Source of the DNA: Porphyromonadaceae bacterium
Lineage (GTDB): Bacteria > Bacteroidota > Bacteroidia > Bacteroidales > Dysgonomonadaceae
Direction: 5' to 3'
DNA length: 64,000 nucleotides
Assembly (NCBI GenBank): GCA_021372865.1
Contig: JAJFTO010000017.1
Coordinates: forward strand, 124,001-188,000
The first letter of the stretch is position 1. Every line of letters starts with the position of its first letter. This document shows positions 18,110-48,274 of the stretch, one piece after another. The notes under the pieces are model-generated. The model saw nothing but the letters and a program-made list of their open reading frames with translations. It searched no databases and was not told the origin of the DNA. The position numbers were made by a program, and so were the translations under genes.

Positions 18110-18253
18110 CCGTTCCCGGGACCAAAACAGAAAGGAAGAAATAAAAGTATATATCTGTCGAATTTTAACTTTTCGCTTCTGATAAAATGCTTTTTTTAAT
18201 CAGATTGAAACTTTTTGTAACTAATTGACAATACATTTTTTAACTCCCCGAAA

Positions 18254-18267
18254 TGCAATCGTTTGCA
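18254..18267. promoter_or_regulatory. Candidate LacI-family operator upstream of susC
   Basis: The 14-mer TGCAATCGTTTGCA is a near-perfect palindrome around a central CG (six of seven pairs), the usual architecture of LacI-family operators. Its reverse complement shares TGCAAACGA-TGCA with a site at 34041-34054 upstream of the transporter gene. The centre lies about 61 bp before the -7 box, a position more usual for an activator than a repressor. The presumed binder is the LacI regulator at 34325-35344. Confidence 0.5.
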
Positions 18268-18321
18268 CGACCAAACGGGGTTAATTACGCCTTTTCCAGC
18301 GTCATACCATTTTTGATATTC

Positions 18322-18329
18322 TAACTTTG
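18322..18329 (+). promoter_or_regulatory. Predicted -7 element for the starch operon
   Basis: TAACTTTG matches TAnnTTTG. No TTG occurs at the -33 spacing, consistent with a promoter that needs an activator. Confidence 0.5.
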
Positions 18330-18450
18330 TATACAGAATGAATTAAGTAAATCCAATGAAAATTAACCTTTCATTGATTTATTCAGTTCATTTTGTGCCA
18401 TTATGAGAACGAAGAGAGTATTAATCAGTTAATCTTATAACGTTAACGAC

Positions 18451-21400
18451 ATGTATGTAAAATTTAAACAAAGCAGGAAAGCGTTTCTGATAACAATGTT
18501 ATTCGGGATGCTCATGACCTTATCGGCAGGTGCCCAAACCGGTACACCGATAAATGTAAAGGGAACCGTGACAGATATTGCCGGCGAGCCACTTATCGGC
18601 GTCAATATCCGGGTACAGGGAACCTCTACCGGTACAGTGACCAATTACGACGGCAACTTTGAACTTCGGGTTCCGGCTGATGGTGTGTTGGAAGTAAGTT
18701 ACATCGGTTACAAACCTCAAACTATTCCCGTCAACAACCGCGCATCCATCCTTATAGCGATGCAGGAAGACACCGAGATGCTTGAGGAATTGGTAGTGAT
18801 TGGCTATGGAACCGTAAAAAAAGATGATGCCACTGGATCAGTAATAGCAGTGGATGCCACCAAATTAAACAGAGGACTGGCCACGTCTCCATCAGATCTT
18901 TTGGCTGGACAGGTTGCCGGTTTGAGTGTTACCTCGGCTGGAGGAGCACCCGGTTCTTCTGCAAACATCCGCATACGTGGAGGTTCCTCCATGTCGGCCA
19001 GCAATGATCCGCTGATCGTGATCGACGGAGTGCCTGTAGACAATACCACCAGCGTGAGCGGTATGTCAAATCCTTTGAGTACAATCAACTCGAATGATAT
19101 TGAGACTTTTACAGTACTAAAAGATGCATCAGCCACCGCCATTTACGGATCACGTGCTTCCAATGGAGTAATCATTATTACTACCAAAAAAGGACACGCT
19201 GGAAAAATGAAATTATCCTATAATGGCAATTTTTCAGTGAGCACCCGTACCGGTGCTGTAGATGTAATGGATGCTCCCACCTTTAGAAATTATGTGATCA
19301 ATTCTTTCGGAGAAGACAGCCAGCAGGCAGCAGCCCTTGGTAACACCGAAACCAACTGGCAGGATAAGATCTTCCGGGTAGCGGCCAGCACCGATCATAA
19401 CTTGAGTGCCTCGGGCAGCGCTGGCGATGTACTTCCTTATCGAGTTTCCGCCGGATATACCAATGAAAATGGAATACTGAGAACATCGAACCTTGAAAGA
19501 TTTACCGGCAGTGTAAATCTGAGTCCTTCATTTTTTGACGATCAGCTCAGGGTTCAGCTCAATGCAAAAGGAATGTACATCACCAACCGTTTTGCCGACC
19601 AGGGAGCGATCAATTCAGCTACCCAGTTCGATCCCACCATGCCTGTGTATTCGGCCACGCCTTCACCCTATGGCAACGGTTATCATATGACACTCCGTCC
19701 AGCGGGAACGCCCATTGACATTGCGTTGGCCAACCCGCGTGCCATCCTGGAACAGAAACACGACAATTCCAGAGTTTACAGGAGTATCGGAAACGCCCAG
19801 TTTGATTACAATATGCCCTTCCTGGATGGGTTAAGGGCCAATCTCAATTTGGGATATGACATCTCCAAAAGTGAAGGGGACGTAATCATTGAGGATAATT
19901 CTCCGATGACCTATACCTGGGGAAATTACAAATCGGGTTGGGGAGAAAACTCAACTTACACCCAGTACAAGAGCAATACATTGCTCGACTTTTATCTGAA
20001 CTATGTAAAGGAAGTTGGCATACATCGTTTCGATGCAATGGGTGGTTATTCATGGCAACGTTTTTATAACGAATCCAGCAATACATATCCTTATTCACCT
20101 GCCATGGCAGCTGAGACAGGAAACGAATTTTACAAGGAAGGAAATGATTATTCTACGGAGAGTTTTGTGATCTCTTTATTCGGCCGTTTGAATTACTCCC
20201 TGCTGGATCGTTATTTGCTGACGCTCACTCTTCGTAACGACGGTTCATCGCGGTTCAGTCCGGACAATAAATGGGGACTTTTTCCGTCAGCAGCCTTCGC
20301 CTGGAAAATCATCAATGAACCTTTCATGGAAGGTGCAGGCAAAGCCCTGTCGGAAATGAAACTGAGACTTGGTTACGGGGTCACGGGTCAGCAAAACCTG
20401 GGCAGCGGCGACTATCCGTGGATGGGACGCTACAGCTATAGCCAGGCCGGCGCCAATTATTTCTTCGGAGATCAGATGGTACCCCTGATCCGACCACTGG
20501 CTTATGATGAGAACCTGAAATGGGAGGAGACTGCAACGTATAATGCAGGAATTGATTATGGTTTCCTGAACAACAGGATATCGGGAGCCGTGGATGTGTA
20601 TTTCCGGAAGACCACCGATCTGTTGAATACAGTAGGAATTGCCGCTGGCACCAATTTTAGCAATCAGCTACTCACCAATGTCGGGGAACTGGAAAACAAG
20701 GGTATTGAATTCACCATCAACGGCAAGCCCATTGTAAGTAGGGACTGGAACTGGAACCTAAGTTACAACGTAACGTTCAATCAGAATCGCATTACCAAGC
20801 TGACTATCAACGACGATCCCAGCTATGTGGGTGTGCGGTTTGGTGGCATCGACGGAGGCACTGGGAATAACATTGCCATTCACAGTGTGAATTATCCGGC
20901 CAGCTCATTTTACGTATACGAACAAGTATACAACGAAGCGGGCAAACCCCTTGACGGAGTATATGTAGACCAAAATGCCGACGGTTCTATCAATGAAAAG
21001 GACCTCATTGTATATAAGAACTCAGCACCCGATGTATTTATGGGATTATCTTCCCAGCTATCGTACAAAAAAGTGGATTTTAATTTCTCACTACGGGCCA
21101 ATATCGGGAACTATGCATACAACAACATCCAGTCGAACCGTGAATCGAAGAATACCACTTACGATCCATCCGGCTGGTTGAAAAACAGGGTAAACAGTGC
21201 TACTTTCACAAACTTTGACGCAGTGCAGTACCAGTCGAGTCATTATATCCAGAACGCTTCGTTCCTGAAGATGGACAACATCTCCGTGGGCTATAATTTT
21301 ACTCATCTGCTGCATCGGGATCAGTCGGGAAGAATCCACTTTACCGTGCAGAATCCGTTTGTAATTACCGACTATGCAGGGCTCGATCCCGAGTTTACCA

Positions 21401-21471
21401 ATAACGGAATAGACAACAACATCTATCCGCACCCACGTGTATTCATCATGGGGCTCAATTTAAATTTTTAA
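18451..21471 (+). CDS. SusC/RagA-family TonB-dependent transporter (starch locus)
   Basis: Outer membrane importer of oligosaccharides that works with its SusD lid. The 1006-residue protein has a signal peptide (to about A28), a carboxypeptidase-regulatory-like domain (VKGTVTDIAGEPLIGVNIRV), a TonB box region (LEELVVIGYGTVKKDD), a plug with NIRIRGGSS and SRASNGVIIITTKKG, and a large beta-barrel ending in F (GLNLNF). It has no STN domain, so it should not signal to an anti-sigma factor, unlike the SusC at 48.3 kb. The adjoining SusD, SusE, SusF and GH13 genes point to maltodextrins as cargo. Confidence 0.95.
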   Translation: MYVKFKQSRKAFLITMLFGMLMTLSAGAQTGTPINVKGTVTDIAGEPLIGVNIRVQGTSTGTVTNYDGNFELRVPADGVLEVSYIGYKPQTIPVNNRASILIAMQEDTEMLEELVVIGYGTVKKDDATGSVIAVDATKLNRGLATSPSDLLAGQVAGLSVTSAGGAPGSSANIRIRGGSSMSASNDPLIVIDGVPVDNTTSVSGMSNPLSTINSNDIETFTVLKDASATAIYGSRASNGVIIITTKKGHAGKMKLSYNGNFSVSTRTGAVDVMDAPTFRNYVINSFGEDSQQAAALGNTETNWQDKIFRVAASTDHNLSASGSAGDVLPYRVSAGYTNENGILRTSNLERFTGSVNLSPSFFDDQLRVQLNAKGMYITNRFADQGAINSATQFDPTMPVYSATPSPYGNGYHMTLRPAGTPIDIALANPRAILEQKHDNSRVYRSIGNAQFDYNMPFLDGLRANLNLGYDISKSEGDVIIEDNSPMTYTWGNYKSGWGENSTYTQYKSNTLLDFYLNYVKEVGIHRFDAMGGYSWQRFYNESSNTYPYSPAMAAETGNEFYKEGNDYSTESFVISLFGRLNYSLLDRYLLTLTLRNDGSSRFSPDNKWGLFPSAAFAWKIINEPFMEGAGKALSEMKLRLGYGVTGQQNLGSGDYPWMGRYSYSQAGANYFFGDQMVPLIRPLAYDENLKWEETATYNAGIDYGFLNNRISGAVDVYFRKTTDLLNTVGIAAGTNFSNQLLTNVGELENKGIEFTINGKPIVSRDWNWNLSYNVTFNQNRITKLTINDDPSYVGVRFGGIDGGTGNNIAIHSVNYPASSFYVYEQVYNEAGKPLDGVYVDQNADGSINEKDLIVYKNSAPDVFMGLSSQLSYKKVDFNFSLRANIGNYAYNNIQSNRESKNTTYDPSGWLKNRVNSATFTNFDAVQYQSSHYIQNASFLKMDNISVGYNFTHLLHRDQSGRIHFTVQNPFVITDYAGLDPEFTNNGIDNNIYPHPRVFIMGLNLNF

Positions 21472-21483
21472 TACTTGACAAAT

Positions 21484-23118
21484 ATGAAGACAGCTAAAAA
21501 ATATACAATCTCATTCATCGTAGCGGTCAGCCTGATGGTCACCGGACTTTCATCCTGCCTCAACGATTTGAACACCATCCCACTCGATCCCGAAGAGTTG
21601 GTGTCGGAAGTAGTATTTGGCAGTGAAATAGGCCCCTATCAGGAGCTATTGGCTAAAATCTATGCAGGAATGGCCATCAGCGGCAACAGCGGCGGAGATG
21701 GCGATCAGGATGTAGCCGGCGTGGATGGAGGTAGTCAGGCCTCATTTTTGAGAGGACTCTGGAACCTGCAGCAACTGCCGACCGACGAAGCACTCTGTGC
21801 CTGGAATGACGTGGGCATCCCCGACCTGAATTACATCACATGGACCTCCAGCAATGTGTTTATCAAAGGATTCTACTATCGTCTGTATTACCAGATCAAT
21901 CTGGCAAATGCGTTTCTGAGGGAAACAACCGCTGAAAAATTATCTTCCAGAGGAGTCAGCCAGGCCGACCAGGATAAGATCAAAACCTTTCGTGCCGAAG
22001 CCCGATTTCATCGTGCGCTCGCTTACTACTATCTGCTCGATATGTTCCGGAATGTTCCTTTCGTGAACGAGGATAGTCCCGTCGGCAGTACCTTGCCTCC
22101 GCAAATAAAGGCAGTCGATTTGTTCGATTATATCGAAAAAGAGCTGACCGAATGTGAAGCAGACATGCTTGATCCCATAGTCGGATATGACAAAGCCAAT
22201 TACGGACGTGCACACAAAGCTGCCAACTGGGCGCTTCTGTCACGTCTCTACCTCAATGCAGAGACATACATCGGCGTGAAGAAATATACAGAAAGCATCA
22301 CCTACAGTAAAAAGGTTCTTGCAGAAGGCTATCAGCTCGACCCGGTATACGCCAATGTGTTCAAGGCCGACAATCACAAATCGACAGAGATGATTTTCCC
22401 CATTCGTTATGAAGGGGAACAAACCCAGACCTGGGGAGGAATGACGTTCCTATTAAGCAGCACAGAGCCTTCCGACATGCAGGCAGAAGTGAATGCCGTA
22501 GGTGCATGGCAAGGTAACCGTGCCACCAGCGCCCTGCTGAAGACTTTCCAAAGAGAGTATCAGCATGAAAACGACAATCGTTTTTCAATGGTACGCATCG
22601 ATAAAACCGAAAATTACGAGATTACGGATCCTTCCCTGTTTACCAACAATGGTATTCCAGTGGTAAAATATTACAACAGAAACAGCGATGGTACCCTGCC
22701 TCCCAACGAGAGCAATATTGCCTTTACTGACTTCCCGCTTTTCCGTCTGGGTGAAATCTACCTCAATTATGCTGAAGCTGTTTTGAGGGGTGGTGCAGGA
22801 GGCGATGCGGCCACGGCTCTGCAACTTGTAAACAATCTCCGCAAACGGGCTTACACCGATGATGTGGCCGCCAACATCACATCCGGTGAACTCACGTTGG
22901 ACTACCTTCTAGATGAAAGAGGACGCGAGTTTTTCTATGAGGCACAACGTCGTACCGATCTGATTCGTTTCGGGAAGTTTACAGGTTCTTCTTACATATG
23001 GCCCTGGAAAGGAAATATAGCAGGAGGAAGGTCTGTCGACGATCACTTCATCGTGTTCCCGATACCGGCAGATGATATGGGTGCAAACGAAAATCTGACA
23101 CAAAATCCCGGTTATTGA
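21484..23118 (+). CDS. SusD/RagB-family starch-binding lipoprotein
   Basis: Outer membrane lipoprotein that caps the SusC barrel and binds the glycan. A lipobox (GLSSC) ends the signal peptide. The central helical TPR-like part contains FRAEARFHRALAYYYLLDMF, and the C-terminus has the typical FRLGEIYLNYAEAVLRGG and LDERGREFFYEAQRRTDLIRFGKF motifs. The ATG at 21484 was chosen over a TTG at 21475. It starts 12 bp after the susC stop, so the pair is cotranscribed. The length of 544 residues is normal. Confidence 0.95.
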   Translation: MKTAKKYTISFIVAVSLMVTGLSSCLNDLNTIPLDPEELVSEVVFGSEIGPYQELLAKIYAGMAISGNSGGDGDQDVAGVDGGSQASFLRGLWNLQQLPTDEALCAWNDVGIPDLNYITWTSSNVFIKGFYYRLYYQINLANAFLRETTAEKLSSRGVSQADQDKIKTFRAEARFHRALAYYYLLDMFRNVPFVNEDSPVGSTLPPQIKAVDLFDYIEKELTECEADMLDPIVGYDKANYGRAHKAANWALLSRLYLNAETYIGVKKYTESITYSKKVLAEGYQLDPVYANVFKADNHKSTEMIFPIRYEGEQTQTWGGMTFLLSSTEPSDMQAEVNAVGAWQGNRATSALLKTFQREYQHENDNRFSMVRIDKTENYEITDPSLFTNNGIPVVKYYNRNSDGTLPPNESNIAFTDFPLFRLGEIYLNYAEAVLRGGAGGDAATALQLVNNLRKRAYTDDVAANITSGELTLDYLLDERGREFFYEAQRRTDLIRFGKFTGSSYIWPWKGNIAGGRSVDDHFIVFPIPADDMGANENLTQNPGY

Positions 23119-23153
23119 TTTGTAAAAATGAATTTCTAAAAGAAGGAATAACA

Positions 23154-24293
23154 ATGAAAACATATAATATCATAGTATTACTGGCCATTCTCGGACTCTT
23201 CTGGTCGTGCCAGGAAGATGAGAAGGTGGTTATGCAGCAACCGGACTCATTTGTACTCAATGTACCCAAGTATGCTTCAGGCATCTATGACCTGAAGAAT
23301 ACGGAAACAATAGAATTTACCACATCTCAGCCTGATTACGGATTTACCGCCGTGGCCATATACAGTGTGGAAGTTTCCCTCAATCAGGATTTTTCCAAAG
23401 CAGTCACTCTTCCCGGTACTTATACCACTGCCAAATTCAACATCAATGCAGCCGATCTTGCACTGGCACTTGTTGGACTGCATGGCGTGACCGAGGAAAG
23501 CGCCTACCCTACTGATCCGCATCCGCTCTATGTACGCCTGTCTTCTGTACTCAATGCGAAAAACGATGGAGCAGTAAAATCCAACATCATTACCCTTCCA
23601 AAGGTCAAAGGTTATTTTGCGCTTGATCCGATGGTGATGCCAGAGAACATGTATATCATTGGCAATGTCGCCGGCAACTGGAACTGGGATAAAGCCACGA
23701 AAATGGTACCTGTATGGGGAACTCCCGGTAAATTCTGGGCAATGCAGTATCTCGGCCAGACAGGAAGTGGAGAGAACGCACAAATTAAATTCAACATCGC
23801 AAAAGCGTGGGATGGCAACGAGTTCGGTTTTGCGAACACCACCATCAACGGAAGTGGTACAGCCGATCCTGCAGCATCTGATGCAGGAGGCAACATCGGT
23901 ATCGGAAATCCGGGCTGGTACATCGTGGTAGTAACCACCACCATCAACGGCCGAGCCTATGACTTTGCCGTGGATTTCTTCCCGCCGGATGTCTATCTGC
24001 AAGGACCGACAGCTGGGGGTAACTGGGGAACCACCGACGAAAAATACCGGTTCACTGTACCCGCCCTGTCTCTCGGCGCTGACGCTACATTTGTTTCGCC
24101 GGCATTCACAGCCACGGGAGAGGTTCGCGCCAGCATCAAACTACCCGGCCAGGAATGGTGGCATACCGAGTTCCTCGTTTTCGACGGCATATTCGTACCG
24201 CGCGGTGCAGGGAACGACCAGGATCGTATCACCGGAAACGCAGGACAGAAACTGCATATTAACTTTACCACATATACGGGTAAAATAGAATAA
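23154..24293 (+). CDS. SusE-like surface glycan-binding lipoprotein
   Basis: A 379-residue outer membrane lipoprotein (lipobox FWSC) in the SusE position. An N-terminal Ig-like SusE domain (residues about 30-160; FVLNVPKYASGIYDLKN) precedes a starch-binding-like module with GNVAGNWNWDKATKMVPVWG and an aromatic-rich C-terminal module (LQGPTAGGNWGTTDEKY). The four residues after the cysteine (QEDE) resemble the acidic export signal that sends Bacteroidetes lipoproteins to the cell surface. It probably holds starch at the surface without catalysis. The ATG at 23154 follows an AAGGAATAA stretch; the longer in-frame start lacks a signal peptide. Confidence 0.88.
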   Translation: MKTYNIIVLLAILGLFWSCQEDEKVVMQQPDSFVLNVPKYASGIYDLKNTETIEFTTSQPDYGFTAVAIYSVEVSLNQDFSKAVTLPGTYTTAKFNINAADLALALVGLHGVTEESAYPTDPHPLYVRLSSVLNAKNDGAVKSNIITLPKVKGYFALDPMVMPENMYIIGNVAGNWNWDKATKMVPVWGTPGKFWAMQYLGQTGSGENAQIKFNIAKAWDGNEFGFANTTINGSGTADPAASDAGGNIGIGNPGWYIVVVTTTINGRAYDFAVDFFPPDVYLQGPTAGGNWGTTDEKYRFTVPALSLGADATFVSPAFTATGEVRASIKLPGQEWWHTEFLVFDGIFVPRGAGNDQDRITGNAGQKLHINFTTYTGKIE

Positions 24294-24305
24294 TTGCCTA
24301 ATCGG

Positions 24306-24335
24306 GAAGCCTCTCTATCAAAGGAGAGAGGCTTC
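24306..24335 (+). terminator. Intercistronic hairpin between susE-like and susF-like genes
   Basis: Perfect 11-bp arms GAAGCCTCTCT and AGAGAGGCTTC with an 8-nt loop, followed by TTCTT. The T-tract is short, so it may be a weak terminator or a structure that protects or processes mRNA rather than a full stop. Confidence 0.6.
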
Positions 24336-24352
24336 TTCTTAAAAATATCAGT

Positions 24353-25786
24353 ATGAATCATAAAATATATCTTTTTGCAACCCTGTTTGCGGTTTTATTC
24401 TTCGGTGCATGTGATGATGTCTATGATCATGTGGCTGCACCACCGCAGGCTTTTGAGCAGGAGACAGCTCAAACGGTAAACGGATTTACCTTTACCCTGG
24501 GATCGGGACTGAACAAAGCGGTGGTCCTTTCGGAAGAGGCTCTTCAAGACGGGACGACGCTGGAAGCCATCAAAACAACCGCAACACCGGCACTTGCCGA
24601 AGGAGCCACGGTAAAATTTATCATTGAGGCCTCCAAGACAGCCGATTTTGCAACCAAAGTAAATTTACCCTCAGTGAGCAACGAGAATATTGCTTCTGTC
24701 ACTGCGACTGATCTGAACGAAGCAGTAAAAAGTTTGTACGGAAAAGCGCCCAATGCGCGTACCCTCTATTTGCGTGCCACCTATTATATCGTGGATGGTA
24801 CTTCCTCTTCCCAGATGCCCGATCCCGTGGTTTTGGGCCCTATAACGGTCACTCCCGTCGGTCCCGTAATTGAAACGGAATATTACCTGATCGGAGACAT
24901 CAACGGATGGAATATTGGTAATCTGAATGCCTATAAGTTCAGCCACAGCGGAAAGGATGTGTACGAAGATCCCATCTTCACCATCCTGGTCAACAATGTA
25001 AACGGTTATTTCAAGATTGTACCGAAATCGAGTAAGGAAGCTGCTTCGTGGGATGGCGTACTGGGAAATCCGGTCGATGGCAACACGAATCTTGAGGGTG
25101 ATATAATTCTTGCAGATGCAAAGGCCATGCGTGTAACAGAACCGGGATGGGTAAAGATCACGCTGAACATGATGGAATATACCTACACCATCGATATCAT
25201 TGGCGAGATGAATCTGACTCTGTATGTACCGGGTGGTCACCAGGGCTGGAATCCGGCTACTGCGCCCACGCTTTACAGCCGTAATTTCGACTTCAAATAC
25301 GACGGATTTGTTTACTTCCCTGCCGCGAATACTGAATTCAAATTTACATCCGAACCCAGCTGGGGAGGCACCAACTATGGCGACGGCGGAGGTGGAACGT
25401 TATCCACCGACGGAGGAGCAGGCAACCTGAAGGTGAGCGAAGCCGGTATGTACAAACTGGACGTGAATCTTTCCGGAAGTCCTGTCTATACGATGGTAAA
25501 AACTGAATGGGGCCTGATCGGCGACGCTACTGCAGGGGGCTGGAACGATTCCACCCCAATGACCTACGACCCTGTAACCAAACTATGGTCGGTGACCACC
25601 ACACTTCTTGCTGACAAGAAATTCAAGTTCCGGGCCAACAACGGCTGGGACATCAACCTGGGTGGAGAGCTCAATAACCTCAGTTATGGCGGCGGTGATA
25701 TCCCCGTTCCGGCAGCAGGCACCTACCTCATCACCCTGGATCTTTCCGACGCTGCACAGTTCAAGGCGACAATGGTAAAACAATAA
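24353..25786 (+). CDS. SusF-like surface glycan-binding lipoprotein
   Basis: A 477-residue lipoprotein (lipobox FGAC followed by DDVYD, an acidic surface-export-like signal). After an N-terminal SusE/SusF Ig-like domain come three beta-sandwich modules with aromatic starch-platform motifs: YYLIGDINGWNIGNL, LYVPGGHQGWNPATAP and WGLIGDATAGGWND. Their order and tryptophan spacing resemble the CBM-like modules of Bacteroides SusF. No catalytic motif is present. Hairpins lie on both sides of the gene, so its expression relative to susCDE may be tuned by partial termination. Confidence 0.88.
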   Translation: MNHKIYLFATLFAVLFFGACDDVYDHVAAPPQAFEQETAQTVNGFTFTLGSGLNKAVVLSEEALQDGTTLEAIKTTATPALAEGATVKFIIEASKTADFATKVNLPSVSNENIASVTATDLNEAVKSLYGKAPNARTLYLRATYYIVDGTSSSQMPDPVVLGPITVTPVGPVIETEYYLIGDINGWNIGNLNAYKFSHSGKDVYEDPIFTILVNNVNGYFKIVPKSSKEAASWDGVLGNPVDGNTNLEGDIILADAKAMRVTEPGWVKITLNMMEYTYTIDIIGEMNLTLYVPGGHQGWNPATAPTLYSRNFDFKYDGFVYFPAANTEFKFTSEPSWGGTNYGDGGGGTLSTDGGAGNLKVSEAGMYKLDVNLSGSPVYTMVKTEWGLIGDATAGGWNDSTPMTYDPVTKLWSVTTTLLADKKFKFRANNGWDINLGGELNNLSYGGGDIPVPAAGTYLITLDLSDAAQFKATMVKQ

Positions 25787-25798
25787 ATACTTCCCAAT

Positions 25799-25828
25799 AA
25801 AAAGCGCGGCGGAATGCCGTGCTTTTTT
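25799..25828 (+). terminator. Intrinsic-terminator-like hairpin after susF-like gene
   Basis: Arms AAAAAGCGCGGC and GCCGTGCTTTTT pair with one G-T wobble and a 5- to 6-nt loop, followed by a run of T. It lies 27 bp before the SusA-like gene, within an otherwise continuous operon, so partial read-through is expected. Confidence 0.7.
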
Positions 25829-25854
25829 GTCTCAACCACACAAATAACCATATA

Positions 25855-27684
25855 ATGAGAAAAATATCGCTATTTCTATCCCTTATTCTTGTCGCTCTCC
25901 TCGTACAGGCACAACAGACACGTATTGAGCCCTCTTTCTGGTGGAGCGGCATGCAGGAAAAAGAACTGCAACTGATGGTTTCTGGTGAAAATATTGCAGC
26001 ATACACACCCAAACTGAATACAGAGCATGTGCGGATCAAAGAGGTGGTGAGACTCGGCAGCCCCAACTACCAGATCATTTACCTGGATCTGTCCAACAGC
26101 ATCCCCGAAACATTTGACATCCAGTTCACGAACGGGAAAAAGAAGATCTCGTTGCCATATGAACTGAAAAAACGAAATCCGGAAAGGCTGAATATAGAGA
26201 GTTTCAATTCATCGGACGTGCTCTACCTGATTATGCCCGACCGGTTTGCCAATGGGGATCCCGCAAACGACCAGATCAAAATGCGCATGCCCTACAAGGT
26301 GGACAGGAAAGATCCCAGTGCCCGCCACGGAGGCGACCTGAAAGGGATTTCCAATCACCTGGATTACCTCTCAAATTTGGGTGTGACGGCCATCTGGCTG
26401 AACCCGGTACTGGAGAACGACATGGAAGGCGGATCGTATCACGGTTATGCTACTACCGACTATTACAAGGTGGATCCCCGCTTCGGAACAAATGAGGAGT
26501 ATAGGAAACTGATTGAAGAGGCCCACGCCAAAGACATGAAGGTGGTAATGGACATGATATTCAATCACTGCGGGAGTGATCACCCATGGGTAAAAGATGT
26601 GCCGTCGCCAGACTGGTTCAACAACCTGAAAGAGTACGTACAGACCTCACACATGAAGGAGATGTATTTCGATAATTATGCGTCGAATTACGACAAAAAG
26701 AAAATGACCGACGGCTGGTTTGTACCGACCATGCCCGATCTGAATCAAAGTAACCGTCATGTGGCAAAATACCTGATCCAGAACAGTATCTGGTGGATCG
26801 AATACGCTGGTGTGGACGGCATCCGTCAGGATACCTATCCCTATGCCGATTACGACATGATGATCCACTGGATTGATGCAGTGGAAAAGGAGTACCCAAA
26901 CTACAACATCGTGGGCGAAGCATGGCTCAACAATACAATTGGTACAGCCTTCTGGCAGAGAAACAGTGCCATCAATCCAAAGAATACCAAATTGAAATCG
27001 GTAATGGACTTCCGCTTTATGGGACTCTCACACAATGCCTTCTTCGAGGAGACCACCGAATGGAACGGGGGCTTGCATGGCATATTCGACCACATGACCT
27101 ACGATTTCATTTATCCCGACATCTACAATGTGCTGCGATTTCTAGACAATCACGACACCGATCGTTTTCTGAAGGAGTATCCCAAAGAGCTCTCAGGCTG
27201 GAAACAGGCGATCACTTTCCTGCTCACCATGCCCGGTACGCCGCAGCTCTATTACGGCACGGAACTGTTGATGAATGGGAACAAGAGCAAGTCCGATGGC
27301 GACATACGCCGTGATGTTCCCGGTGGATGGCCTGGCGACAAGGTAGACCATTTTACAAAGACAGGGCGTGACGAAATACAGAATGAAGCATTCGACTTTC
27401 TCAGCAAGCTCCTCCACTGGCGGCAGGACAACGAGGTGATCGCCCACGGCGGCATGAAGCATTACGTACTCCAGAAAGGGGTGTATGTGTATGAACGCTA
27501 TCTTGACAACAAACGTGTACTAATCTTTATGAATGGCACTTCCAACAATGTAGAAATAAACCTTGGCCGTTATAGCGAGTCAATTAAAAACAAGCGTGAG
27601 TGGACGGATTTTGTTTCTGGAAGAAACATTACACTGAACGAGACAATGACACTCTCTCCCAAAGAGATACTCATTTTGGAGTAA
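25855..27684 (+). CDS. GH13 neopullulanase/cyclomaltodextrinase-like enzyme (SusA-like)
   Basis: Alpha-glucan hydrolase with a cleavable signal peptide (LLVQAQ, no lipobox), so probably periplasmic like SusA. An N-terminal beta-sandwich (residues about 20-120) typical of cyclomaltodextrinases precedes the GH13 barrel. The catalytic triad can be read as D326 (GIRQD), E355 (VGEAW) and D434 (NHD). It has 609 residues, close to SusA. The expected role is to cut imported maltooligosaccharides. The ATG at 25855 was preferred because it directly begins the signal peptide (MRKISLFLSLILVALL). Confidence 0.9.
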   Translation: MRKISLFLSLILVALLVQAQQTRIEPSFWWSGMQEKELQLMVSGENIAAYTPKLNTEHVRIKEVVRLGSPNYQIIYLDLSNSIPETFDIQFTNGKKKISLPYELKKRNPERLNIESFNSSDVLYLIMPDRFANGDPANDQIKMRMPYKVDRKDPSARHGGDLKGISNHLDYLSNLGVTAIWLNPVLENDMEGGSYHGYATTDYYKVDPRFGTNEEYRKLIEEAHAKDMKVVMDMIFNHCGSDHPWVKDVPSPDWFNNLKEYVQTSHMKEMYFDNYASNYDKKKMTDGWFVPTMPDLNQSNRHVAKYLIQNSIWWIEYAGVDGIRQDTYPYADYDMMIHWIDAVEKEYPNYNIVGEAWLNNTIGTAFWQRNSAINPKNTKLKSVMDFRFMGLSHNAFFEETTEWNGGLHGIFDHMTYDFIYPDIYNVLRFLDNHDTDRFLKEYPKELSGWKQAITFLLTMPGTPQLYYGTELLMNGNKSKSDGDIRRDVPGGWPGDKVDHFTKTGRDEIQNEAFDFLSKLLHWRQDNEVIAHGGMKHYVLQKGVYVYERYLDNKRVLIFMNGTSNNVEINLGRYSESIKNKREWTDFVSGRNITLNETMTLSPKEILILE

Positions 27685-27773
27685 AGAGAAAGAGAAGTTC
27701 AATCACAAATATTACACAGGGATTCGCAGCAGTGATGTGCGACAGTCAAAAAACGACGATTAAAACAGCTATT

Positions 27774-30143
27774 ATGAAAACGAAATACAAAAAAACCATC
27801 CTGTCAGTCAAAACAGTACTCTCCCTGCTACTGGTATCCTTCTTTGTCTTCTCCTGTGGCGACGATCCGATCCCCACACCCGAACCGAAACCGGAACCGC
27901 CTGTGACCATCAAAGATGGTATCTCCTGGAGTTCCACGTCACCCGACGCCGACAAGGAACTGACCATCTGGTTCAAAGCATCTTCCTCATCCCCCCTCTA
28001 TAATTATACCGGCGATGTATATATCCACACCGGCGTGGTGAGTGAAGGTACCTGGTTGTATGTACCAGCCGCCTGGGATCAGAATATCACCCAATGCAAG
28101 ATGATCAAAGTGGATAATGAGAAGTCCACCTGGAGCATCAAGCTCTCTCCCTCCATTCGTCAATGGTTCGGCTCAGGAGAGACACCGGTAAACAAGATCG
28201 GTATCGTGATCCGAAATGCAGACGGGACAAAGAAGGGAATTGAAAACGATACATTTATTGAAGGAATTACCGACGGTAAATACAGACCTTTTCAGCCGGC
28301 AGCCATCAAGGAGGGTACGCTACCTGCAGGGCTGAAACAGGGCATAAACATTGTCAACAACACCACAGTCACACTGGTACTCTATGACAAGGACAAGTAT
28401 GGTGCCCGCAAGGATTTTGCCCATGTGGTGGGTGATTTCAACAACTGGACATTGAGCAACGACGATAAATCACAAATGTTCCGTGACAACGCCGCAGGCT
28501 GCTGGTGGATCACCATCACCGGACTGGATCCTACAAAAGAGTACGGATTTCAGTATTACATAGGAAACAATGGGAAAGATCCCATTCGGGTGGCGGATCC
28601 CTATTCCCGCAAAATTCTGGATCCAGCCAATGATAAATATATATCAGCAACCACCTATCCCAATCTTAAACCTTATCCGGCAGGTGCTATCGGTATTGTG
28701 TCGGTGCTCAAGACTGTGGAAGAAACTTATAACTGGCAGGTAGTCGACTTCAAGGTGCCGTCGCGTGACAACCTCGTTATATACGAGCTGTTGTTGCGTG
28801 ATTTTACCGCAGGTGGTGATCTGAGTGGAGCGATGGAGAAACTGAACTATCTTCAATCGCTGGGCGTCAATGCGATAGAACTGATGCCGGTGCAGGAGTT
28901 CGACGGCAACGACAGTTGGGGATATAACCCGGCCTTCTACTTCGCAATGGATAAGGCGTATGGAACCGACCAGATGTATAAGGAGTTTATCGACGAATGC
29001 CACAAACGGGGCATTGCGGTGATCCTCGACGTGGTGTATAACCATGCTACCGGAGCCAATCCGTTTGCCAAAATGTGGTGGAACAGTGCTACCGACAAAA
29101 CGTCAGACAACAATCCTTTTTTCAATATAGACGCGCCCCACCCCTTTAGCGTATTTCACGATTTCAACCACAGTAATCCACTTGTACGTGATTTTGTAAA
29201 ACGCAATTTGGAATTCTTGCTGGATGAGTATAAGGTGGATGGTTTCCGCTTTGACCTCAGCAAAGGTTTTACGCAAAAACAGTCTTCTGATGACGGCCTG
29301 TTCAGGGTGTATGATGCCGATCGGATTTCGTACCTTAAGGAGTATAACCTGGCGATTAAGACCAAAAAGGCAGATGCACTGGTTATTCTGGAACACTTTG
29401 CCGACGACAAAGAAGAAACGGAACTCTCCAGCGCAGGAATGATGGTGTGGCGCAACAACAATGAGGCATATTTGGAAGCAGCCATGGGATGGAAAGACAA
29501 AGCCGATTTCAGCAGAGCGTATTATGGTACCTCCTCACGACCAGTAAATAGTCTGGTCAGCTATATGGAGAGCCACGATGAAGAACGGGCAGCTTATAAA
29601 CAGTCTCAGTATGGAAATGGAATTCTGAAAACAAGTCTTGATGCCGGGATGTCGCAGTTAGGGACCAATGCAGCATTCTTCTTCACCGTACCGGGTCCGA
29701 AAATGATGTGGCAGTTTGAGGAACTGGGATACGATATTTCGATTGATTACAATGGCAGAACGGGAAAAAAGCCTGTAAAATGGGATTATTACAATATAAC
29801 ACAACGCAAACAGTTACATGACACCTATGCACGGTTGATGAAACTGCGAAAGGATCACCCCGAGCTGTTCAATGCTACGGCGACCCTCAGCTGGCAGGTG
29901 ACCCCCTCTTTCTGGGAACAAGGTAGATTTATTACACTCTCATCATTTGGAAACGCAAAACAGATTGTGGTTGTGGGCAATTTTACCAACAACAATGATT
30001 TTAATGCCACCACCACATTCCCAAAGACAGGCACGTGGTATAAATACATGAACGCGGGAGATACGTTGAATGTAACTTCAACGAGTATGCCTATCGCTGT
30101 ACCGGCAAACAGCTTTAAAATATATACTACGTTCCAGGAGTAG
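27774..30143 (+). CDS. Large GH13 alpha-amylase-family lipoprotein with N-terminal starch-binding modules
   Basis: A 789-residue lipoprotein (lipobox VFSC followed by GDDP, an acidic surface-export-like signal). Residues about 35-160 form a beta-rich module (ISWSSTSPDADKELTIWF), followed by a CBM48-like module (FAHVVGDFNNWTLSNDDKSQ) and a GH13 barrel with triad D494 (FRFD), E540 (ILEHF) and D602 (SHDE). The CBM48 plus barrel layout resembles pullulanase or branching-type GH13 more than SusG, though the surface location would make it the functional counterpart of SusG. The specificity (amylase or pullulanase) cannot be fixed by eye. The GTG start at 27600 was rejected because no signal peptide follows it. 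Confidence 0.87.
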   Translation: MKTKYKKTILSVKTVLSLLLVSFFVFSCGDDPIPTPEPKPEPPVTIKDGISWSSTSPDADKELTIWFKASSSSPLYNYTGDVYIHTGVVSEGTWLYVPAAWDQNITQCKMIKVDNEKSTWSIKLSPSIRQWFGSGETPVNKIGIVIRNADGTKKGIENDTFIEGITDGKYRPFQPAAIKEGTLPAGLKQGINIVNNTTVTLVLYDKDKYGARKDFAHVVGDFNNWTLSNDDKSQMFRDNAAGCWWITITGLDPTKEYGFQYYIGNNGKDPIRVADPYSRKILDPANDKYISATTYPNLKPYPAGAIGIVSVLKTVEETYNWQVVDFKVPSRDNLVIYELLLRDFTAGGDLSGAMEKLNYLQSLGVNAIELMPVQEFDGNDSWGYNPAFYFAMDKAYGTDQMYKEFIDECHKRGIAVILDVVYNHATGANPFAKMWWNSATDKTSDNNPFFNIDAPHPFSVFHDFNHSNPLVRDFVKRNLEFLLDEYKVDGFRFDLSKGFTQKQSSDDGLFRVYDADRISYLKEYNLAIKTKKADALVILEHFADDKEETELSSAGMMVWRNNNEAYLEAAMGWKDKADFSRAYYGTSSRPVNSLVSYMESHDEERAAYKQSQYGNGILKTSLDAGMSQLGTNAAFFFTVPGPKMMWQFEELGYDISIDYNGRTGKKPVKWDYYNITQRKQLHDTYARLMKLRKDHPELFNATATLSWQVTPSFWEQGRFITLSSFGNAKQIVVVGNFTNNNDFNATTTFPKTGTWYKYMNAGDTLNVTSTSMPIAVPANSFKIYTTFQE

Positions 30144-30372: not shown

Positions 30373-30879
30373 ATGAAATCAATAGCAATTATTTACGGGT
30401 CGAGTACCGAACATACAAAAAATGCAGCTGAGAAAATAGCAGCCCGACTGGTCGATTATACCCCCTCCTTATCCGACATCTACGATGGCGATGAAGCCCC
30501 GTTTCTCTCCAACGATGTTTTGATTTTGGGAGTTTCCACCTGGGGCGTACAGGATCTGCAGGACGACTGGAATGATTTCTATCCCAAGCTGGAGAAGATG
30601 GATCTTTCCGGCAAGACGGTCGCCCTGTTTGGCATGGGCGATGCGTCCATATATCCCAGTTCATTCGTGGATGCCATGGGGATTCTTTATGAGATTGTCG
30701 TAGCGAGAGGAGCTACCGTCGTCGGACAGGTTTCGCCCGAAGGATATGATTTCGAGTACTCCAGGGCGCTTGTCGATGGTCAGTTTGTGGGTCTTCCACT
30801 CGACGACGACACAGAGCCGGAACTCACCGATGAGCGCATCGCCGCCTGGGTAGACATGCTGAAACCCTATTTGAAATAG
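30373..30879 (+). CDS. Flavodoxin
   Basis: A 168-residue FMN-binding electron carrier. The phosphate loop is IIYGSSTEHTKNAAEKIA near the N-terminus; the isoalloxazine-stacking loops appear as GVSTWGVQDLQDDW (about residues 56-69) and FGMGDASIYPSSFVD (about 82-96). The length and the loop near residue 140 (PEGYDFEYSRAL) indicate a long-chain flavodoxin. It sits between the two arms of the starch locus but has its own promoter with a palindromic site. Its 3' end overlaps the convergent GH13 gene by 13 bp. The partner is unknown; pyruvate oxidoreductases are typical. The ATG at 30373 lies just after the promoter. Confidence 0.93.
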   Translation: MKSIAIIYGSSTEHTKNAAEKIAARLVDYTPSLSDIYDGDEAPFLSNDVLILGVSTWGVQDLQDDWNDFYPKLEKMDLSGKTVALFGMGDASIYPSSFVDAMGILYEIVVARGATVVGQVSPEGYDFEYSRALVDGQFVGLPLDDDTEPELTDERIAAWVDMLKPYLK

Positions 30880-32243
30880 ATTTTATATTCCCATGGGCCG
30901 AGTTCCATTACTTTGGTACCGGTAACGGTGAATGAATCGGGGAAGGAGAAAAATTTCTTTCCTGGGATTTCTTCTTGAAAGGTTGCTGTAACCTTTTTGT
31001 TACTCAGGTTGAAAACAGCAACGACCTCATCTTCAGCATCGGTTCGTCGAAACGACCAGACGTTTTCCGGACGGTCGTTGACAATCTCTTCCATTTCACC
31101 CGCTTTTTCCGGTGTTTTCAAAGCACTGTGCTGTTTTTTGAAGGCGTTCAGCTTTTTGTAGAAACCGGAGAACCCTTGCGGATCGGTCCAATCGATCTGA
31201 TCCTTCTCAAAGAACTGTAACCGACGGTTGAACCCTGCTTCCTGTCCACTGTATATCAAAGGCATACCCGGAAGCATATAGGTGAGCGCGGCAAAAGTTT
31301 TTGCTGCTCCTCCCATGCGTTCAAATTCAGTTCCGTTCCACGAATTCTCATCGTGATTCGAAGTAAAAAACATGGGTATCGCCTGCGACGAAAAGCGTTC
31401 GTGCATCCTTTGCAAGGAGATACGGAGCGAATCGACATTTTCCTTACCCTGAGCCACCATGTTCATCTTGTGATGGAAATCCCAGGCATAATAAGCATCG
31501 AAAACCGCCTCATTCAGTTCCGGCTTTTCTGCTTCAGCGAGCAGAAAGATATCGGGATTCAATACTGTGAGGGAGTCTTTGGCTGCTGTCCAGAAATCGG
31601 TCGGTATTTCACCCGCCACATCACAACGGAAGCCGTCGATGCCGGTCTCCCTGATCCAGTATTGCATGGCTGCAATCATCGCAGTACGCATTGGCTGCTG
31701 GTTGTAATCGAGTTGCGCAATATCTGTCCAGTCATACATCACGTTCAGATTTCCCAGGCTATCCCTGATGTACCAATCGGGATGTGCATCCACCCACTCG
31801 GCATCGCGCGAGGTATGGTTTGCCACCCAGTCAAGAATCACCTTCATATCGAGATCATGCGCCTTCCTGACCACCGCCTTGAAATCTTCCAGCGTTCCAA
31901 ATTCTGTGTTTACGCCGGTATAGTTTTTAATGGAATAATAGCTCCCCAGGGTACCTTTTCTGTCTTTCTCACCGATGGGTTGTATGGGCATAAACCAAAG
32001 GATGTCCACACCCAGTTCCTTTAATCGGGGCAGATTGGCTGCAAAAGCGCTGAACGTTCCTTCCGGCGTATACTGGCGGGTGTTTACCTCATAGATCACC
32101 GCATCGTATACCCATTCCGGATGTTTGTCTGTTGCCGCAGACTCCTGATTTTGGCGGGCAGGCTGGTTGCCACAGGATATCAACAAGGCCAGTGCGGCAA
32201 ATAAAAAGTAGTCCGTAAAAATGCGAATTTTTTTCGTATTCAT
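30867..32243 (-). CDS. GH13 alpha-amylase-family lipoprotein (458 aa)
   Basis: Compact GH13 enzyme with a lipobox (ISC24). The residues after Cys24 (GNQPARQNQ) are not acidic, so it is more likely to face the periplasm than the surface. The barrel begins at about residue 44; the triad is D208 (FRCD), E237 (LLAEAE) and D298 (SNHDE). No extra carbohydrate-binding module was seen, and a small C-terminal beta domain ends the protein. It lies downstream of the sugar transporter gene on the same strand and is probably part of the LacI-controlled set. Its substrate is likely a short maltooligosaccharide. The ATG at 32243 is preferred over the longer frame because the signal peptide begins there. Confidence 0.9.
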   Translation of the reverse strand: MNTKKIRIFTDYFLFAALALLISCGNQPARQNQESAATDKHPEWVYDAVIYEVNTRQYTPEGTFSAFAANLPRLKELGVDILWFMPIQPIGEKDRKGTLGSYYSIKNYTGVNTEFGTLEDFKAVVRKAHDLDMKVILDWVANHTSRDAEWVDAHPDWYIRDSLGNLNVMYDWTDIAQLDYNQQPMRTAMIAAMQYWIRETGIDGFRCDVAGEIPTDFWTAAKDSLTVLNPDIFLLAEAEKPELNEAVFDAYYAWDFHHKMNMVAQGKENVDSLRISLQRMHERFSSQAIPMFFTSNHDENSWNGTEFERMGGAAKTFAALTYMLPGMPLIYSGQEAGFNRRLQFFEKDQIDWTDPQGFSGFYKKLNAFKKQHSALKTPEKAGEMEEIVNDRPENVWSFRRTDAEDEVVAVFNLSNKKVTATFQEEIPGKKFFSFPDSFTVTGTKVMELGPWEYKIYFK

Positions 32244-32365
32244 ATGTAAACGTAAATATGTTAAACTGTTATTATTTCTTATCGATTGCTGACACCTGAA
32301 CCGCTGCATGTATCAAATCTCTACTTCAAAAGCTGATTGCTGATTACTAACAAATAACCGTTCCA

Positions 32366-33895
32366 TTATTTTCTACGCATCTTGTACACATCGTCCCGGT
32401 CCCGTACCCAGAAGACGCTTACTGCACCCAGGATGAGCGAGCAGCCTGCCAGCACCAGCGTCAGGATCACCCTGCCATGGAAAATCTCGCTGGTAACAAA
32501 CCCGAGAATACTGGCCGCCAGGATCTGCGGAATGACGATAAAGAAATTAAAAATACCCATGTAAGTTCCCATCTTGTCGGCCGGCAATGATCCGGTGAGG
32601 ATGGCGTAAGGCATTGAAAGGATGCTGCCCCAGGCAAAACCTACACCAATCATGGGTATCAGCAACATATTGGGATCACTGATGAAGAAAAGAGAAATAA
32701 AAGAGATTCCTCCCAGCGCCAAGGCAATGGCGTGCGTTGCCCTGCGTCCGATCTGTTTTGCAATAACCGGCAACAGGAATGCACTCAGCGCCGAAATGCC
32801 GTTATAAACAGAAAACAGTACCCCCACCCAGTTGGCGCCTTGATTGTAAAGCGCGGAAGCAGAGTCGGTAGTTCCATATACGTGCTGGGTTATCGCGGGC
32901 GTAGTGTAAATCCACATGGCATAAAAAGCCAGCCAGGAGAAAAACTGCACAATGGCCAGTTGGCCCATGGTCTTGGGCATGTGTAACAAATCGTTCATGA
33001 TACCCACCATACCCCTCGGGTCGGGCGATTTTTTTGTAATAGCCGAAGAGAGAAGCAGGATCAGGCCAAACGCCAGCAACAGGCCTGCGACAATAAAGAG
33101 TTGCCCGTTTTGCCTGCCCAGCGGGGTAGCCATAATCAACAACGTCGTAGCCACACCGACAAGTGTCCAGACAATTCCTCTTTTCAAAAACTGAGAAGAG
33201 GTTACCGGCGCTTTGATCTCAGTTTTCATGCCGGTTGTTTTTTCTTTTTCTGCCTCGAAGGCAGCCAGCTCTTCGGGGGCATACTCTTTGGTGGTAAGTA
33301 CCGTATAGAGAACCGACAAGAAGAGCACGATCGCACCGATATAAAACGAAAGCTTTACCGAAAGCGGAATAAGCCCTTCGGCAGCCGTATTGGGTACACC
33401 AAACCAGTTTGTGAGAATATAAGGCAGTGCCGATGCAATGACGGCGCCTGTTCCAATGAAGAAGCTTTGCATGGCGAAACCCATGGTCCGCTGTTCCGAA
33501 GGCAGGTTGTCTCCCACAAATGCCCTGAATGGTTCCATGGAAATGTTAATGGAGGCATCCATGATCCACAGCATCCCCGCAGCTATCCACAGTGAAGGCG
33601 AATTGGGCATAAATAACAGAGCCAGTGTGGTAAAAAGCGCTCCTACCATGAAATAGGGACGCCGGCGACCAAAACGGCTCCAGGTCTTATCGCTCAGATG
33701 TCCGATGATGGGTTGTACAATCAAACCGGTAATGGGAGCTGCGATCCAGAGTACCGGAATATCTTCCACCCGCGCGCCGAGTGTTTCAAATATGCGGCTC
33801 ACATTTGCGTTCTGCAAGGCAAAGCCAAACTGAATACCCAAAAATCCGAAACTCATGTTCCAGATCTCCCAGAAAGAAAGTCGTTTCTTCTTCAT
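32366..33895 (-). CDS. MFS sugar transporter, SLC45-like
   Basis: A 509-residue inner membrane transporter with about 12 hydrophobic helices and the conserved loop motif [21 protein letters not shown], typical of SLC45-type sugar/H+ symporters. A long cytoplasmic loop (about residues 205-235, rich in E and K) divides the two halves. Its place between a LacI regulator and a GH13 gene points to maltose or maltodextrin uptake across the inner membrane, completing the route from SusC. Bacteroidetes maltose loci often carry this family. Substrate specificity is inferred from context. Confidence 0.9.
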
Positions 33896-33976: not shown

Positions 33977-33984
33977 CAAATATA
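33977..33984 (-). promoter_or_regulatory. Predicted -7 element for transporter gene
   Basis: The minus strand reads TATATTTG followed by C. It lies about 82 bp before the ATG and lacks a clear -33 TTG, as at the susC promoter. Confidence 0.5.
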
Positions 33985-34040: not shown

Positions 34041-34054
34041 TGCAAACGAATGCA
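34041..34054. promoter_or_regulatory. Candidate LacI-family operator upstream of transporter gene
   Basis: TGCAAACGAATGCA is a partial palindrome around a central CG and shares 13 of 14 positions with the reverse complement of the susC site at 18254-18267. Its centre is about 63 bp before the -7 box, against about 61 bp at susC. Confidence 0.5.
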
Positions 34055-34058
34055 CACC

Positions 34059-34200
34059 ATTCGTTCGCTACGCTCACGTTTTTTACTTCGTGTTATTCGT
34101 TCAATGCGTTCACGTTATTCACTCTATTCGTTCGTGTCATTCGGCTGACATTGTTATTTGTTCGCTACGCTCACAGTATTTGTGCTTCGCTCGCGACAAC
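34059..34200. repeat. Degenerate TTCGTTCGCTACGCTCAC repeat tract
   Basis: Related units occur at 34060-34077 (TTCGTTCGCTACGCTCAC), about 34097-34114 (TTCGTTCAATGCGTTCAC) and 34158-34174 (TTGTTCGCTACGCTCAC), with fragments such as GCTTCGCTCGCG between. Spacing is irregular. This is an intergenic repeat of unknown role, and not a CRISPR array. Confidence 0.55.
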
Positions 34201-34324: not shown

Positions 34325-35344
34325 CTACCGAATAATTCCCCTCGTGGAGCCTTTCAATACGAGTTCTGTCTTGATAAGCCGGCTCACCACACCCGACTTT
34401 ATCTCTTTTCCTTCGATGCGGTTGATAAGTAAACGTGCGGCCACCTTTCCCATTTCAAAGCCATGCTGATCGACAGTTGTCAGTGTGGGATTGGTCACCT
34501 CCGTAATATAACTGTTGGTAAATCCACAGACTGAAACATCTTCCGGAATCCTGTAACCGGCAGATTTGACAATCTGCATGCAGTAGGCAGCCACCTCATC
34601 ATTGATACAGAAGAAAGCATCGGGAATCGGATCCGATTTCAATAACTCCGGCACAATTTCTCTTGCCAGTTCAATTGTGTCGCAAATTCGGCTAAGATTT
34701 TTATCGACCGGAAGTTTATTTTTCCGCAACGCATCTTCATAGCCCATGCGTCGATTGTTGGCGATGGGCATAGAGGGTGTAGATCCCAGAAAAGCTATCC
34801 GTTGGCAACCTGTATGAATCATATGCTCGACAGCGGTGTAGGCGCCTGCATAATCATCCACAACCACCTTGTCGGTATTTATTCCGGTACAGATACGGTC
34901 GAAAAAAACAAGATATACATTGTTGTCGATAATCTCCTGAAAGTGATCGAACTTTTCTGTTGTTTTCGATTGGGAAGCCAGGATTCCACAAACCCGTGCA
35001 TCGAGTAACGTCTCCACACTTCTTACCTCACGTGCATAATCTTCGTTGGAGTGGCAGAAGAGCAGATTATACCCTTCTTTTTCCGCCTCGTGTTGAATGC
35101 CTGCCAGCACAGTAGAGAAAAAATAATGTACTATTTCAGGCACAATCACGCCAATAGTTGTATTGCGATTGGTACGCAACTGCAGGGCCAGTGTATTGGG
35201 TTTATATTTGTGGGTCTCTGCATAGTCCTGCACCAACTTCCTGGTTTCGGCACTGATGGCAGGGTGGTTCTTCATCGCGCGCGACACGGTGGAGGGTGAC
35301 AGGCTGAGCGCTTTCGCAATATCTTTTAAGGTGATCGGGTTCAT
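34325..35344 (-). CDS. LacI-family transcriptional regulator
   Basis: A 339-residue sugar-responsive regulator. The N-terminal helix-turn-helix (TLKDIAKALSLSPSTVSRAM) is followed by a hinge helix (NTLALQLRTNRN) and a periplasmic-binding-protein-like effector domain with IGVIVPEIVHYFFSTVLAGI and a C-terminal TTVDQHGFEMGKVAARLL segment. The ATG at 35344 was chosen because homologues begin just before the HTH. It heads the minus-strand transporter and GH13 set and faces arginine deiminase divergently. The likely effector is maltose or a related sugar. It may replace SusR, which is absent here, as controller of both arms of the locus. Confidence 0.93.
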   Translation of the reverse strand: MNPITLKDIAKALSLSPSTVSRAMKNHPAISAETRKLVQDYAETHKYKPNTLALQLRTNRNTTIGVIVPEIVHYFFSTVLAGIQHEAEKEGYNLLFCHSNEDYAREVRSVETLLDARVCGILASQSKTTEKFDHFQEIIDNNVYLVFFDRICTGINTDKVVVDDYAGAYTAVEHMIHTGCQRIAFLGSTPSMPIANNRRMGYEDALRKNKLPVDKNLSRICDTIELAREIVPELLKSDPIPDAFFCINDEVAAYCMQIVKSAGYRIPEDVSVCGFTNSYITEVTNPTLTTVDQHGFEMGKVAARLLINRIEGKEIKSGVVSRLIKTELVLKGSTRGIIR

Positions 35345-35370
35345 AGGCACGTCCTGTAAATATACAATCT

Positions 35371-35378
35371 CAAAAATA
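35371..35378 (-). promoter_or_regulatory. Possible -7 element for lacI-type gene
   Basis: The minus strand reads TATTTTTG about 27 bp before the ATG. An alternative, CATCTTTG, lies at 35402-35409. No good -33 element was seen for either. Confidence 0.4.
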
Positions 35379-35437
35379 GTAAAAAAAAAGAAGAATATCG
35401 GCAAAGATGAAAAAACGGAGTATTATTTACTTCGAAA

Positions 35438-48140: not shown

Positions 48141-48195
48141 AAATAAAACGGAGAGCTTATGGATAAAAAATAATATCACCAAACGAATGAAAAGA

Positions 48196-48224
48196 GCCGG
48201 ACGATATTGGCGGTACCATCCGGC
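48196..48224. other. Hairpin between anti-sigma and SusC genes
   Basis: GCCGGA and TCCGGC arms with a 17-nt loop, then CAAAA without a T-tract. It may mark the leader of the SusC transcript. Weak evidence. Confidence 0.3.
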
Positions 48225-48274
48225 AAAACTGAAATTAATTACCTTGATTATTAATAATTAAATCATACAAATAT

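Follow-up and report, generated by a model that had tools for sequence, protein, structure and literature searches.

The LacI-type palindrome upstream of susC quite probably serves as operator for the LacI-family protein whose gene lies at 34.3 kb, and this protein is predicted to be a starch/maltodextrin-responsive activator. The initial annotation of this DNA had already suggested that the regulator activates, and the suggestion is supported, at the level of sequence comparison, by a near-rigid distance of 54-55 bp between the palindrome and the -7 box and by an operator centre that would lie clear of the core promoter. The window, that is, the whole stretch of 64,000 nucleotides that was analysed, contains the following features of the locus.

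18254-18267, + strand: LacI-type palindrome TGCAATCGTTTGCA upstream of susC, with six of seven pairs matching and a central CG
18260-18277, + strand: inverted repeat CGTTTG-N6-CAAACG, overlapping the palindrome; the right arm is possibly an additional half-site
18280-18287, + strand: GTTAATTA element, 13-20 bp past the palindrome
18322-18329, + strand: -7 box TAACTTTG of the susC promoter, 54 bp past the palindrome end
18451-21471, + strand: susC, a SusC/RagA TonB-linked outer membrane protein (TIGR04056), the first gene after the promoter
21475-30143, + strand: susD, susE-like, susF-like and two GH13 genes, downstream of susC
30867-32309, - strand: gene of the GH13 alpha-amylase family, situated after the MFS gene
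32366-33895, - strand: MFS sugar transporter gene, with the second palindrome upstream
33977-33984, - strand: -7 box TATATTTG of the MFS promoter, 56 bp past the second palindrome
34041-34054, - strand: second LacI-type palindrome TGCATTCGTTTGCA, in the MFS promoter region, downstream of lacI in the same starch locus
34325-35404, - strand: LacI-family regulator gene, candidate regulator of both window sites

The palindrome and its predicted regulator

Reading of the sequence confirmed the palindrome as it was initially annotated, and TGCAATCGTTTGCA, an even palindrome with a central CG, has the form of a LacI/GalR-family operator. The distance of about 61 bp to the -7 box given at that time holds from the palindrome centre and corresponds to 54 bp from the palindrome end. 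Conservation upstream of orthologous susC genes, whose absence was to have refuted the initial proposal, was found when promoters were compared across relatives. A loose match to the motif carries no meaning, because a search of the window with three mismatches gave 9 matches versus 8.1 in shuffles, which is the chance level; a relaxed pattern applied to genomes was also mostly noise (87/97 matches versus 33/33 for the backwards control). The strict class TGCAWWCGWWTGCA has 2 sites in the window's own genome (2,723,526 bases, 2.72 Mb, 86% complete) versus 0.18 expected from the window base composition and 0 for the backwards pattern, and both sites, 18254-18267 and 34041-34054, fall inside the same starch locus. 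Across this genome and 100 relatives, 113 strict sites were found in 59 of the 101 genomes, and the backwards control gave 1. A chance palindrome was rejected on these counts together with the box spacing described below.

The protein encoded at 34.3 kb carries the two domains of the LacI/GalR family, a helix-turn-helix (PF00356, 1.7e-11) and a periplasmic-binding-protein-like sensor (PF13377, 1.7e-31), and its true start is probably Met-21, near 35344. Its solved structural relatives include CcpA (the closest), PurR and LacI. The window comes from a Proteiniphilum-like genome: the LacI loci nearest to its own, at 92% identity, are those of Proteiniphilum sp. UBA4084 and of an unclassified Bacteroidetes bacterium. 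The own genome has three LacI-type helix-turn-helix matches, one of which adjoins a site. When 61 genomes of the genus and family were sorted by the presence of a LacI orthologue (at least 48% identity) and of the palindrome, 41 had both, 2 only the LacI protein, 3 only the palindrome and 15 neither (Fisher p=1.4e-9); the palindrome thus occurs in 41 of 43 LacI-positive versus 3 of 18 LacI-negative genomes. The LacI-only genomes, G014 and G021, are 76% and 59% complete. Among the palindrome-only genomes, G001 (460 contigs) has two well-spaced sites and no LacI match, and G012 and G052 have a site with neither the orthologue nor the spacing. The palindrome is therefore associated with the LacI protein of 34.3 kb by co-occurrence, as its predicted operator.

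Two further observations concern other parts of the window. Three imperfect 26-base repeats (ATTCGTTCGCTACGCTCACG...) occupy 34059-34181, after lacI ends and ahead of the MFS promoter. At 46980-51697 a FecR-type anti-sigma gene precedes a second gene of the SusC type, an arrangement that represents a further known form of control of glycan loci in Bacteroidota.

Spacing between the palindrome and the -7 box

The spacing was measured at 118 distinct sites picked by the palindrome alone (the 113 in the 101 genomes and 5 in named LacI loci), where the Bacteroidota -7 box TAnnTTTG was scanned at offsets of up to 200 from the palindrome end. The box stood at offset 54 in 55 cases, at 55 in 17, at 56 in 3, and at 53 and 57 in 1 each. 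Offsets 53-57 were thus occupied at 76 of the 118 sites (77 site-box pairs, because one site has two boxes) and offsets 54-55 at 72, while all other offsets averaged 0.16 sites. The exact box was absent from 53-57 at 42 sites, all among the 113 genome-mapped ones; 15 of these have TTTG in the correct position, which is expected at about 5% by chance, and 27 have neither. After the 77 pairs were thinned to less than 75% identity, 55 were left, 36 of them at 54 and 14 at 55. A fixed upstream distance, as in class-I activation, is therefore found at 54-55 bp, with gaps that vary too little to show helical phasing. In an open set of 24 named loci (L197-L220), 6 of 10 palindromes had the box at 53-56; this set counts one L206 site twice and includes a close relative, L215.

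The distance is kept at different kinds of genes. Among distinct promoters, the box was present at 37 of 44 of the susC type and 18 of 20 of the MFS type, and where it was present the distance to the ATG ranged from 136 to 318 bp for susC and from 85 to 145 bp for MFS; the interval between palindrome and box has itself diverged in sequence between promoters. By gene, the 77 pairs comprise 37 susC-type, 18 MFS, 2 GH13 and 1 lacI promoter, and 19 precede a gene without a match to the window proteins. The first genes at 21 further sites, unmatched or with TTTG only, were listed and 10 of them classified: three GH77 with CBM20, three GH97 (all TTTG only), one DUF3417/carbohydrate-phosphorylase, one alpha-amylase, one of the susC type (TTTG only) and one without a clear family. 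Genes with the exact box thus include susC, MFS, GH13, GH77, phosphorylase-like and alpha-amylase genes, and GH97 genes have only the TTTG in position.

The spacing rule was also used as a search pattern, in which the palindrome, a fixed gap of 54 bp and the box were sought together in the own genome with up to three mismatches. The search returned the susC site, one site with one mismatch in front of a GH77/CBM20 gene and one three-mismatch match, with 0 in the backwards control; the 55-bp version added a sole new match, which carries three mismatches. The GH77 site (locus L329 on contig C19; CGCAATCGTTTGCA, 54 bp, TAGTTTTG) precedes a 4-alpha-glucanotransferase gene and is probably a third member of the regulon. 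It had been overlooked by the strict palindrome search and was recovered by the spacing rule, as predicted.

The sites were also sorted by the class of regulator in their genome. The exact box was present at 58 of 65 sites where the LacI protein is at least 70% identical to that of the window, and at 10 of 26 where the identity is 48-53% (TTTG alone at 11, neither at 5). The corresponding figures were 1 of 9 sites at 41-47% identity, 0 of 3 in genomes with only a LacI paralogue and, where LacI is missing, 2 of 10, the two being the G001 sites.

Outside the family, the arrangement was sought in 395 genomes of the phylum with palindrome-box gaps of 40-70 allowed. Eight genomes gave 12 matches, of which 7 lie at 54-56, in the own genome and in two genomes from another family of the order (gaps of 54-55 in the latter), and the rest are five singletons at gaps of 57-69. 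In this second family, a scan with the same range of gaps found 69 matches in 30 of 201 genomes, with 34 at 54, 20 at 55 and 62 within 53-57; for some of them, different genomes share the identical sequence, and the backwards control gave 1. Twenty palindromes of the second family lie between two divergent boxes, with both gaps at 53-57 in 17 of them. The flanks of the two cases that were read are susC and a LacI-MFS pair, and their LacI proteins share 54% and 48% identity with that of the window. One operator that serves two promoters at equal distance fits activation better than occlusion. In 30 LacI neighbourhoods from across the phylum (about 3 kb each), 90 boxes and 6 palindromes were found and 0 of the 6 lay at 53-57, so that either Bacteroidota LacI proteins do not follow the spacing rule in general or this test was underpowered. 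A GH31/GH28 (pectin-type) locus of genome G494 (L255:1501-1577) has TGCAAACGTTTGCA 55 bp before TATATTTG, and because it shares the arrangement, a LacI paralogue may use the same geometry there.

Other elements of the promoters

The susC promoter indeed has no TTG 17-22 bp upstream of the box TAACTTTG, as had been noted initially, where this absence was taken as a sign of an activator. In the widest range of positions (17-22 bp before the box), TTG is less frequent at promoters with the motif (7 of 88) than at comparison boxes (26 of 135; p=0.02), but in narrower ranges the deficit has p=0.15 and 0.28. TTG is rare at the comparison boxes too, so the argument from the missing -33 element is weak. 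The overlapping inverted repeat at 18260-18277 was likewise present as described, and it is enriched, with 12 of 112 promoters matching at 5 or 6 of 6 bases versus 0.3% at control offsets. As a sign of two regulators it is only partly borne out, since nothing links another protein to it; being confined to these 12 promoters, 11 of susC and one unassigned, it may be an extra half-site. The GTTAATTA element is conserved in most Dysgonomonadaceae susC promoters, non-orthologous ones included, and was not seen in the MFS promoters compared, which have an A-rich stretch instead. It is possible that GTTAATTA is contacted by the alpha C-terminal domain of RNA polymerase or by a second factor.

A separate element lies directly before the susC start codon. 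About 30 bases at 18421-18453 (TTAATCAGTTAATCTTATAACGTTAACGACATG) are near-invariant in most of 22 susC leaders, while the leader outside them has diverged, and TTAATCAGTTAATCTTATAACGTTAACGACATG has a single copy in the window. An Rfam search of 18200-18500 gave no match. The element is possibly one of translation control.

Mode of action and known systems

Class-I activation is exerted from positions such as -61.5, -71.5 and -81.5, with the alpha C-terminal domain of the polymerase bound between the activator and the core promoter. The predicted operator has this geometry, as its centre near -72 is clear of the core promoter; the value assumes that the -7 box, with the consensus given in the available part of PMC12632263, is centred on -7. 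We propose that a LacI dimer would bind with its centre near -72 of the putative start, 54-55 bp before the -7 box, and would bring RNA polymerase to the core promoter or stabilise it there in the manner of a class-I activator, probably through contact with the C-terminal domain of the alpha subunit. Maltose or maltodextrin may be the effector that switches the dimer to recruitment.

Repression is the usual mode of the LacI family, and the solved relatives named above include CcpA, PurR and LacI, so a classical repressor that holds the promoters off without maltodextrin and is released by the inducer has to be considered. We regard it as unlikely, because 54 bp separate the end of the operator from the -7 box, so that the operator stays clear of both the -33/-7 region and the inferred start, and each window promoter has a single strict site, which leaves none for looping. 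Near-rigid spacing at unrelated genes and an operator shared by divergent promoters are also hard to square with occlusion. Common descent of a few promoters might explain the spacing without any function, given that susC or MFS promoters make up 55 of the 77 site-box pairs and many of these are orthologous. This is highly improbable on the data, since the spacing survives thinning to less than 75% identity and holds at non-homologous genes in two families, while leaders and intervening sequence have diverged.

A second factor might also bind at GTTAATTA or at the CAAACG arm and be helped or blocked by the LacI protein, with the complex setting the spacing. Such an anti-activator or co-regulator would agree with the recurrence of both elements in Dysgonomonadaceae susC promoters, and CcpA bound at an upstream site reportedly interferes with the activator LevR (PMC3463425). 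It seems quite unlikely here, because the spacing is retained at the MFS and GH77 promoters and at most of those in the second family, which have neither GTTAATTA nor the arm. The preferred reading thus remains direct activation by the LacI-family protein.

LacI-family activators are already known, and the conserved operator with activator geometry described here is, as judged from its sequence, a variant of them. MdxR of Enterococcus faecium likewise belongs to the LacI family and positively controls maltodextrin uptake and breakdown genes, as was shown by deletion, transcriptome and qPCR (PMC3737153). The sites described here also precede maltodextrin/starch uptake and breakdown genes, which makes the match to an MdxR-like activator one of function and not of orthology. 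MdxR differs in that it comes from a Firmicute with another promoter type, and the main text of its description, from which the terms 'promoter' and 'binding site' are absent, gives no operator geometry for comparison (PMC3737153). CcpA, also a LacI/GalR-family protein, has been linked with helix-face-dependent activation from cre sites upstream of -35, but according to the available part of that source it is a global regulator, mostly a repressor, with variable site distances and -35 promoters (PMC3463425).

In Bacteroides thetaiotaomicron, the starch utilisation (sus) genes are likewise under an activator, SusR, but this is described as a membrane protein whose DNA-binding domain is unlike any other known one, and its sites are predicted to be direct repeats whose centres are separated by 67 or 77 bp (PMC3878776). 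The locus studied here has LacI domains and a single palindrome instead. Bacteroides also has the LacI-family regulators KdgR, UxaR, UxmR and UxuR of carbohydrate genes, but these belong to uronate pathways (PMC3878776), and in the available part of a LacI survey Bacteroides regulators are named only for uronates (PMC4052901). LacI genes beside polysaccharide loci are, as far as the accessible text of one source goes, not unusual in Bacteroidetes (PMC7768429). Among the titles and abstract beginnings of the open-licence literature, we recognised no LacI activator of Bacteroidota starch genes with such spacing and found no description of an activator at a fixed distance from Bacteroidota -33/-7 promoters.

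We lean towards the view, which goes beyond the single locus, that this Bacteroidales LacI clade is a dedicated class-I starch/maltodextrin activator with a near-invariant distance of 54-55 bp, which from one operator may drive two divergent promoters, including that of its own gene, and which would take SusR's role in part of a second family as well as in Dysgonomonadaceae. The compact operator and its distance rule, present in 112 distinct promoter sequences, offer a handle on class-I activation at -33/-7 promoters, and the spacing-based search rule finds targets beyond the strict palindrome, such as GH77 in the own genome. The arrangement suggests that Bacteroidales may have a second means of controlling starch use, one that does not involve SusR.
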